Made by a program: the position numbers and the translations under genes | Assembly (NCBI RefSeq): GCF_000422945.1 | Contig: NZ_AUHA01000002.1 | Location: 1,488,001-1,552,000 of the forward strand | DNA length: 64,000 bases | Origin: Daejeonella oryzae DSM 19973 | GTDB lineage: Bacteria > Bacteroidota > Bacteroidia > Sphingobacteriales > Sphingobacteriaceae | Reading direction: 5' to 3' | Shown: piece by piece, positions 62,156-64,000 of the stretch | Position numbering within the stretch: the stretch's first letter is position 1 | How the letters are laid out: each line of letters opens with the position of its first letter | Notes under the pieces: generated by a model | The model's input: only the letters and a program-made list of their open reading frames with translations | The model's database searches: none | What the model was told of the DNA's origin: nothing

Positions 62156-62527
62156 ATGACTTACAATAAACTGAACCCGCAAGAAGAGGAAGTGATTTTG
62201 CATAAAGGAACAGAAAGACCTTTTACTGGCGAATATGTAAATACCAAAGAAGCAGGAACCTATATCTGCCGGCAATGCAATACCCCTTTGTATACCTCCG
62301 AAGATAAATTTGAATCGCACTGTGGCTGGCCAAGCTTTGACGATGAATTGCCCGGTGCAGTAAAGCGTGTTGCTGATCGCGATGGACGCCGTGTTGAAAT
62401 TGTTTGTGCTAATTGTTCCGCACATTTGGGTCACGTTTTTGAAGGAGAGCGTTTCACTCCTAAAAATACCCGCCATTGTGTAAATTCCATTTCGATGAAA
62501 TTTATCCCTGCCAAAAGCGGAAACTAA
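62156..62527 (+). CDS. msrB: Peptide-methionine (R)-S-oxide reductase
   Basis: MsrB (123 aa) repairs R-methionine sulfoxide. Structural zinc cysteines are in CRQC and CANC. The substrate loop is [15 protein letters not shown] and the C-terminal catalytic Cys is in [13 protein letters not shown]. There is no fused MsrA and no signal peptide, so it is a cytosolic single-domain enzyme. Confidence 0.94.
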
Positions 62528-62556
62528 TTGTATTTATTTCTATTAAATAATTATAT

Positions 62557-62850
62557 ATGATCAAATTTGGATTGCTGGCAACCCTTGAAGCTAAGCCGGG
62601 CAAAGAAACGGAACTGCATGATTTTTTAATATCAGCCTTGCCATTGGCGCAGGATGAACCGGGTACAAAAACCTGGTATGCTTTCAGGATTAATTCCGGT
62701 ACGTATGGGATATTTGATTCATTTGAAACTGAAGAAGCACGCGAGGCTCATTTATCCGGACCGATCGCTAGAGCTTTAATGGAAAAAGCCGCTGAGCTTT
62801 TAGCCAAAGATCCGGTTATTGAGAAGACAGATATTCTGGCAGCTAAATAA
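62557..62850 (+). CDS. Antibiotic biosynthesis monooxygenase (ABM) fold protein
   Basis: A 97-aa dimeric alpha+beta-barrel protein of the ABM/quinol monooxygenase type: IKFGLLATLEAKPGKETELHDFLISALPLAQDEPGTKTWYAFRINSGTYGIFDSFETEEAREAHLSGPIARALM. The activity cannot be assigned. It lies 29 bp after msrB and may share its transcript, which would fit a stress context. Confidence 0.8.
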   Translation: MIKFGLLATLEAKPGKETELHDFLISALPLAQDEPGTKTWYAFRINSGTYGIFDSFETEEAREAHLSGPIARALMEKAAELLAKDPVIEKTDILAAK

Positions 62851-62871
62851 GGTTATCCACATATTTATTTT

Positions 62872-62901
62872 AAAAGCCGATCTTTTAGATTGGCTTTTTT
62901 T
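62872..62901 (+). terminator. Terminator after the ABM gene
   Basis: AAAAGCC-g-ATC and GAT-t-GGCTTTT pair around a TTTTA loop with a run of seven T at the end. Confidence 0.8.
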
Positions 62902-63029
62902 GTACCCGGAAGGGTCAGGCTAGCTTTATTGCAGCTTTATCTGATTGTAGATTTTATGCAATTTGTTTAAAACTTAAACTCATGCTAAGCACTCTAAAGT
63001 ATATATTTGTTGCTCGAAAAAAGTTCTTA

Positions 63030-63160
63030 CCAATTTAACCGGCTTGCCGGATTTTTTCCGGAATAAACAAGGGATACCGTGTGTAAATCACGGGCTGACG
63101 TGCAACTGTTAGGATCATTAAATCAGTATGATTTAATCTCAGCCAGAACACCTGCCGCGT
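63030..63160 (+). promoter_or_regulatory. Cobalamin riboswitch upstream of nrdB
   Basis: The conserved elements of the adenosylcobalamin aptamer are visible in order: AAGGGATACCG...ATCACGG (63069-63093), GCAACTGT (63102-63109) and the 3' B12-box AGCCAGAACACCTGCC (63141-63156), which fits the family consensus AGyCAGrAnACCTGCC. A CCGG...CCGG stem lies at 63039-63050. About 105 bases of structured leader follow before the nrdB ATG. This points to repression of nrdB when cobalamin is present. Confidence 0.9.
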
Positions 63161-63264
63161 TTAATTGTCAAAGCTTTCACGAATAAAGTTTTGACGGAGA
63201 TTCTGATTCTCGCATCTGTTGATGCAGGAATTGCTGTCTTCTGTCAATTCCAAAACCATCTGTT
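63161..63264 (+). promoter_or_regulatory. Expression-platform region of the riboswitch
   Basis: Three possible hairpins lie between the aptamer and the ATG: GTCAAA...TTTTGAC (63167-63195), GCATC-TGTT-GATGC (63212-63225) and GGAATTG...CAATTCC (63228-63251). No long T-run is present, so control at the level of translation, by masking the start region, is more likely than termination. Confidence 0.5.
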
Positions 63265-64000
63265 ATGAATCACGAGAACGAAATCCTGTTAAAGGAAAAT
63301 AAAGACCGCTTTGTCCTGTTGCCAATAAAATATCCCGCTATATGGGAAATGTATAAAAAAAGCGAGGCCAGTTTCTGGACAGCTGAAGAGATTGACCTTT
63401 CTGGAGATATTAAAGATTGGGAAAATCTGAATGATGGTGAAAAACATTTCGTGTCGCATATTCTGGCCTTTTTTGCTGCCAGCGATGGTATCGTAAACGA
63501 GAATCTGGCTGTTAATTTTATGAGCGAAGTGCAGATTCCGGAGGCCCGTTGTTTTTATGGCTTCCAGATTATGATGGAAAACATTCATTCAGAAACCTAC
63601 GCCCTGCTAATTGATACCTATATCAAAGATGCGGTTGAAAAAGAAAGATTGTTTCATGCTATTGATACAGTTCCCTGCGTGAATAAAAAGGCACAATGGG
63701 CCTTGAAATGGATCAATAACGGGAATTTTGCCCAGCGACTGGTGGCATTTGCTGCCGTAGAAGGTATTTTCTTTTCCGGAAGTTTCTGTTCTATTTTCTG
63801 GTTGAAAAAACGCGGACTGATGCCGGGCTTGACTTTCAGCAATGAGTTGATTTCCCGTGACGAAGGAATGCACTGCGAATTTGCTTGCCTGCTTTACAGC
63901 ATGCTGAGTCAAAAACTTTCTAAAGAGGAAGTAACAGAAATTATTGCTGATGCGGTGGAGATTGAAAAGGAATTTGTAACCGATGCCCTGCCTGTAAATC
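63265..64000 (+). CDS. nrdB: Class I ribonucleotide reductase small (R2) subunit, 3' truncated by the window
   Basis: An open frame from ATG 63265 to the window end, about 245 codons with no stop. It starts [16 protein letters not shown]. The diiron site is visible: Asp74, Glu105 and His108, with the radical Tyr112 in ENIHSETY, plus VEGIFFSG and [10 protein letters not shown] in the second half. The enzyme reduces ribonucleotides to deoxyribonucleotides with oxygen but without B12. The cobalamin riboswitch upstream controls it. The partner nrdA is expected downstream, outside the window. Confidence 0.96.

Follow-up and report, generated by a model that had tools for sequence, protein, structure and literature searches.

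A putative cobalamin riboswitch with a re-paired kissing loop precedes the class I ribonucleotide reductase genes of Daejeonella oryzae

The window analysed here, a stretch of 64,000 nucleotides from Daejeonella oryzae DSM 19973, ends inside nrdB, the gene for the small subunit of a class I ribonucleotide reductase. In the genome the frame passes the window end and encodes a protein of 324 aa; nrdA lies behind it, its 787-aa product having ATP-cone, all-alpha and barrel domains. The upstream neighbour at 62156-62527 is presumably a peptide-methionine-(R)-S-oxide reductase-like gene (msrB), judged from its sequence. NrdB residues 4-324 align at 500 bits with the solved R2 chain 1h0n, which we take to be mouse R2, and by this alignment the protein is strikingly close to animal R2. 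Residues D74, E105, H108, E166, E200, H203 and Y112 all match the corresponding 1h0n positions; with the first six as diiron ligands and Y112 as radical tyrosine, the diiron site and the radical position are intact, as an earlier note on this DNA had claimed.

That note had also placed B12 aptamer signatures directly upstream of nrdB. They are borne out by the Rfam cobalamin covariance model, RF00174, whose match (36.8 bits, cut-off 31.5, E 1e-5) was the only one above cut-off in the 64 kb when cmscan was run with 4227 Rfam families at gathering score, and by an independent covariance model, R2, built from the nrdB leaders of 16 relatives with the window left out. R2 matches 63015-63207 with 105.1 bits (E 3e-30, E-values for such models being rough). 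The extent previously given, 63030-64000, is short at both ends: the Rfam match begins 6 nt before it, and nrdB runs on to the equivalent of 64239. The sequence GGGATACCG can be read directly at 63071-63079; the core GCAACTGT (GCAACUGU core, 63102-63109) and the B12 box AGCCAGAACACCTGCC lie at the places expected for RF00174, and the aptamer ends 91 nt from the nrdB ATG. A minimal (class II) cobalamin aptamer would have no P6 side domain. P6 is short in the window and in many relatives; a longer P6 region with AGCCAGGAGACC occurs in 8 of the 32 riboswitch-bearing nrdB leaders (L023, L032, L036, L038, L040, L041, L043 and L048), and some further nrdB leaders have long inserts and a short junction. 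The nrdB leader looks like a vitamin B12 sensor, and we infer that its RNA binds a cobamide. The promoter-like TATATTTG is weak by itself: the pattern TAnnTTTG, which we take to be the Bacteroidota -7 promoter consensus, occurs 58 times in the window, fewer than the mean of 82 in shuffled sequence; by eye, the same word is similarly placed in several relatives' leaders. Transcription from it would start near 63015.

Features of the nrdB leader, with window positions and the basis of each assignment
Feature	Position	Strand	Basis or remark
Promoter-like element TATATTTG	63002..63009	+	Pattern match to Bacteroidota -7 element TAnnTTTG
Cobalamin riboswitch aptamer (putative), RF00174	63024..63173	+	cmscan 36.8 bits; model R2 105.1 bits
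Loop L5 ACGUG, first half of kissing loop (consensus UCCCG)	63098..63102	+	Sequence; consensus as given in PMC10653944
B12 box AGCCAGAACACCUGCC	63141..63156	+	Sequence, alignment
P13 hairpin	63167..63195	+	Fold and pair counts on alignment
P13 5' arm	63167..63177
P13 loop CACGAAU (CACG pairs L5)	63178..63184
P13 3' arm	63185..63195
UUGACGGAG, P13 3' part and next bases, can pair 63239-63247 instead	63191..63199	+	350/364 cells, 28 distinct leaders
Conserved platform strand CUUCUGUCAAUUCC (CUUUUGUCAAUUCC in many relatives)	63238..63251	+	Ends 13 nt ahead of start codon
nrdB, class I reductase small subunit, eukaryote-like	63265..64000	+	Leaves window; ends at equivalent of 64239; then nrdA

The genome (3.45 Mb, 99.5% complete) holds the second reductase that the earlier note had predicted: a full-length class II nrdJ at C1:1081238-1084549 (1104 aa), which scores 581.5 bits against TIGR02504 (cut-off 399.95) and has class II N-terminal and TSCPD domains. 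A genome search for the class III enzyme NrdD found none. A cobalamin adenosyltransferase is encoded, and CobS, the sole cobamide synthesis gene searched for, was not found. At E up to 0.001, RF00174 matches the genome in two places only, ahead of nrdB and at C2:531245-531436 (105 bits by Rfam), upstream of a BtuB-like TonB receptor that scores best against the B12 receptors of NCBIfam (252 bits, under the cut-off of 599.7). The organism thus probably takes up B12 from outside and has two reductases, of which only NrdJ depends on the vitamin, NrdBA being the likely choice when the supply is low.

The nrdB riboswitch was compared with the distribution of nrdJ in 201 genomes of the family (completeness floor 90%), of which 124 have nrdB (E up to 1e-30), 70 have nrdJ (E up to 1e-100) and 50 have both. 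From all 123 relatives (124 loci, with L034 and L069 shortened by contig ends) a segment of ~1.5 kb spanning the beginning of nrdB was taken and scanned with Rfam at gathering score; a threshold of E up to 0.5 was applied to the final four nrdB-only loci and to 16 loci of genomes with both enzymes where no match had appeared. A riboswitch precedes nrdB in 32 of the 50 genomes with both enzymes (31 of 49 relatives, plus the window) and in none of the 75 loci (74 genomes) that have nrdB without nrdJ (Fisher p = 1.4e-17, with G083 left out and relatedness ignored). An nrdB tree (501 nt) gave only three well-supported independent pairs, none in the opposite direction; with so few, a relatedness-controlled test is underpowered and 0.05 unreachable. 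One of the 18 misses falls at a contig end, where only ~180 nt of upstream sequence is available (L034, genome G083). The other 17 genomes carry both enzymes and no riboswitch, which is therefore dispensable for their co-existence. One same-genus genome of 2.3 Mb, G006 (L013), has nrdB and nrdJ, yet RF00174 matches it nowhere with an E-value of 0.001 or less.

A named set of 80 nrdB loci, 45 of them tested for nrdJ, extends the comparison mostly to Chitinophagaceae and unplaced Bacteroidota; three of the 45 (L146, L183 and L214) match genomes of the family set. The nrdB riboswitch was found in 20 of these 45 genomes, in 19 by model R1, which contains some of them, and in L177 by motif only. 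R1 was built with the window and 11 of the 31 riboswitch-bearing relatives included. nrdJ is present in 19 of the 20, the exception being L199, a 2.6-Mb MAG, and in 14 of the 25 named genomes without the riboswitch. From the family and named-genome counts, nrdJ therefore looks nearly necessary, yet not sufficient, for an nrdB riboswitch. Separately, L201 and L211 have a second cobalamin-type riboswitch ~3.5-4 kb past the nrdB start on the same strand (L201:8450-8682, 77.7 bits; L211:8007-8238, 61.7 bits), and G144 and G171 have an RF00174 match at a similar distance downstream.

Within the aptamer, the contact between loops L5 and L13 sets the nrdB leaders apart. In the account given in PMC10653944, L5 has the consensus UCCCG, and mutation showed that its pairing with L13 carries the ligand signal. 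All 32 nrdB leaders instead have L5 of the form (A/U)CG[N]UG and an L13 that starts with CACG; the window L5 deviates from the consensus and is complementary to its L13 (CGUG/CACG). Across an alignment of 18 leaders, 97.2% of the kissing-loop cells are paired, and two of the four pairs show changes on both sides; for the structure as a whole the figure is 80.8%, compared with no more than 44.9% when slid. One of five pair-count measures was weak, its number of further pair types being reached by 48 of 500 shuffles. A gapless script gives the bulged forms ACGNUG only shorter or different pairings; they may be read as CG-UG with a bulge. We also considered pairing of L13 CACG with a stem, CCGUG/CACGG, near 63077-63094, and dropped it because the stem varies (GUG, AUG, GGG) whereas CACG stays constant. 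L5 itself, which sits in a hairpin CUG-UCCCG-CAG (with L5 delimited as UCCCG in PMC10653944), changes in step with L13.

For comparison we took 20 other riboswitches with strong Rfam matches from genomes with an nrdB switch, together with the btuB-side copy of the window genome, for which alone the gene behind the riboswitch was checked. UCCCG with CGGGGA is found in 17 of these 21, the btuB-side copy included. L228 has UUCCCG/CGGGUA, L218 is re-paired as UCGCG/CGCGUA, L227 is a poor fit (UCCCG/CGUGGA), and L226 has an L13 of CGGGGA (L5 unread). L218 (G012:C21:322880-323380) lies far from nrdB and, with its UCGCG/CGCG, reaches 84.5 bits in the nrdB-leader model. Among named nrdB loci outside the family, further complementary pairs are ACGGG/CCCG (L153, L173, L193), UCGGG/CCCG (L206), UUGCG/CGCA (L180, L187, L194, L207), ACGCG/CGCG (L190) and, by eye and with one G-U, UGGCG/CGCU (L201). 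The near-consensus UCCCCG occurs in seven named nrdB loci, with CGGG in L199 and L211 and with CGGAGG in L174, L177, L191, L200 and L209; L13 of L136, L201 and L214 was read by eye. By this survey, kissing-loop re-pairing is common on nrdB and not universal. A tentative proposal, which we hold to be possible and somewhat doubtful, is that nrdB switches of Sphingobacteriaceae, Chitinophagaceae and relatives have repeatedly rewritten L5-L13 while other switches in the same cells mostly kept the consensus, and that the rewriting may set how much B12 it takes to turn down the essential reductase, giving B12 uptake and reductase choice different thresholds.

Downstream of the aptamer, the P13 3' arm and the next bases (UUUUGACGAAAG) match, as their complement, a conserved strand, CUUUUGUCAAUUCC, which begins 27-56 nt ahead of the ATG (110 nt in L024; unrecognised in L033). 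This alternative helix was counted on 30 rows, leaving out L024 (shifted frame) and L033 (anchor missing). Its count of paired cells (see the table) lies above all 2000 shuffles (mean 342), and nine cells in five pairs are altered on both sides, whereas slid versions have 155-228 cells paired and up to five double changes. In the window, one A-U pair of the helix is replaced by G-C, a compensatory change. Because they use the same bases, the alternative helix and P13 are mutually exclusive. In several relatives the strand, once freed, might close over the start codon by pairing as UUCCUG/CAGGAA (codons 3-4) or CUUUUGU/ACAAAAG (before the ATG). The UUCCUG/CAGGAA pairs, which many relatives have, are absent in the window, where start-blocking pairs are weak. 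A start-blocking helix common to all leaders, UUCCUGUU with AACAGGAA, was tried and rejected: it has 184 of 240 cells paired, a count that includes a misplaced platform strand in two rows (L012 and L054), and it fails in the window. Of 30 folded leaders, 11 have a start that is more accessible by at least 0.19 in the alternative form (from 0.39 to 0.69 in L058, for instance), and in 19 the two forms agree within 0.08, two of these being 0.02 lower in the alternative form; in the computed fold of the window it goes from 0.63 in the P13 form to 0.70 in the alternative form. The mutually exclusive helices are supported by these comparisons of leader sequences; their reach to the window start codon is not.

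Considering the genomic partnership and the structure together, we regard it as very likely that the nrdBA leader is a cobamide riboswitch. With ample AdoCbl it would repress the class I reductase and leave dNTP synthesis to the AdoCbl-dependent NrdJ; with too little imported B12 it would let nrdBA be expressed. A cobamide would bind at the four-way junction; CGUG of L5 would then pair with CACG of L13 and keep P13 closed, a pairing backed by covariation. Closed P13 would deny its 3' arm to the platform strand, the alternative helix likewise being backed by covariation, and the platform region would fold onto the start region and block translation, through pairs that are weak in the window. 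When no cobamide is bound, P13 would open, its 3' arm would take the platform strand and the start would be free. Repression is on record for a B12 riboswitch of Bacteroides thetaiotaomicron, which is described in PMC6143338 as repressing ~70-fold at 37 nM B12.

The pairing of the P13 3' arm with a strand before the start codon suggests translational control. The ligand might instead lower nrdBA at transcription, through Rho or pausing, and we think this rather unlikely. The platform strand stops short of the ATG by 13 nt and window start accessibility barely shifts, as such control would allow, and the title of Borovok 2006 has coenzyme B12 controlling transcription of Streptomyces nrdABS. 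However, a pattern scan of 62500-63400 found no terminator-like site, for which reason intrinsic termination was set aside and translational control is favoured; moreover, the platform strands of several relatives are complementary to bases flanking the ATG, and over a third of the folded leaders (the 11 above) free the start in the alternative form.

Ancestral function followed by decay is the second alternative to repression through a working riboswitch. Among the 32 nrdB-linked matches the window copy ranks last by Rfam score (the remaining 31 reach 41.3-84.1 bits); it has an additional U within GGGA-U-ACC and, by hand reading, two mismatches of P2 in the standard register, a shifted register pairing better. 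Eroded copies do stand at the same place in other genomes. With R1 the window scores 117.5 bits and the 31 relatives that have the riboswitch score 102-184; in nrdB leaders of genomes lacking nrdJ it finds 15 matches in 14 loci at 8.7-21.6 bits, 14 of the 15 on the sense strand and ~74-336 nt upstream of nrdB. Several have single E-values above 0.05; what speaks for them is their common position. The clearest relic core, AGACCATGGTAAAACATGGGCTAATGTGCAACTAAAA, occurs in G080, G165 and G174, with one base different in G156; ungapped, it agrees with the core at 24 of 37 positions, where the antisense strand of these loci never exceeds 21, and an unrelated-looking stretch of L051 also has 24. Eroded copies are present beside both enzymes as well (R1: L050, 35.1 bits; L039, 20.8; L037, 16.6 and 13.4). 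It is nevertheless improbable that the window copy has decayed and lost regulation of nrdB in the manner of these remnants: its 105.1 bits in the window-free R2 compare with 16.4-34.9 for seven remnants and 61.4 for the btuB-side copy, L5, L13, P13 and the alternative helix are retained, the last with its compensatory change, and nrdJ is intact. The weakened P2, the re-paired kissing loop and the alternative helix are all absent from the earlier note. As to the remnants themselves, riboswitch decay probably followed nrdJ loss in at least one clade; if nrdJ loss came with erosion of the switch, the family would provide a plain example of how a regulatory RNA decays. Five nrdB-only leaders of one family group (L077, L062, L116, L112 and L114) have a common AT-rich leader in which the aptamer core is gone and a P13-like hairpin and a TTTGTC strand are retained; this leader may serve another use.

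That corrinoid binding activates nrdBA, as cobinamide does with the cobT riboswitch of Alkalihalobacillus halodurans, is very improbable: such an activating riboswitch exists (described in PMC10653944), and the two forms are similar in start accessibility in 19 of 30 folded leaders, so that folds alone leave the regulatory sign open, but in every leader where the forms differ by at least 0.10 (11 of 30) it is the P13 form whose start is less accessible, and partnership with a B12-dependent isoenzyme makes sense chiefly under repression.

Repression by a cobamide would place the locus within a general scheme, B12 riboswitches on B12-independent isoenzymes, as outlined in PMC2211319 and PMC9600662. 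The Streptomyces precedent invoked by the earlier note is confirmed by the account in PMC4991794 (citing Borovok 2006), where nrdABS of Streptomyces coelicolor has a B12 riboswitch and the same genome has a class II NrdJ. In our literature search the arrangement was unreported for Sphingobacteriaceae or Chitinophagaceae; subscription literature was thinly covered, and a prior description is possible. The main text of PMC3766115, on Bacteroidaceae cobalamin regulons, contains no word that starts with nrd. The scheme would bring an essential pathway under B12 control in Bacteroidota genera such as Mucilaginibacter and relatives of Chitinophaga.

Both the Streptomyces system and the present one combine a cobalamin riboswitch before class I genes with an AdoCbl-dependent NrdJ in the genome. 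They differ in that the genes here belong to a member of the Bacteroidota, run nrdB then nrdA, encode a eukaryote-like R2, are putatively controlled at translation, have a non-consensus kissing loop and, by the ORF list at the locus, have no nrdS-like gene beside nrdA. The Priestia megaterium metE riboswitch, as presented in PMC10653944, likewise serves a B12-independent isoenzyme and places the P13 3' side in a competing helix without corrinoid, but acts through a transcription terminator, of which none was found in the nrdB leader. Closest to hand, the btuB-side copy shares with the nrdB copy the core, the B12 box and a P13 with L5-L13 kissing; it has 105 bits, a long P6 region and UCCCG/CGGGGA, whereas in the nrdB copy P6 is short and the loops read ACGUG/CACGA. 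The scheme of a riboswitch on class I genes is already known from Streptomyces; what is unusual here is the re-paired internal contact, and the compensated kissing loops offer a natural series for testing how aptamer and platform are coupled.
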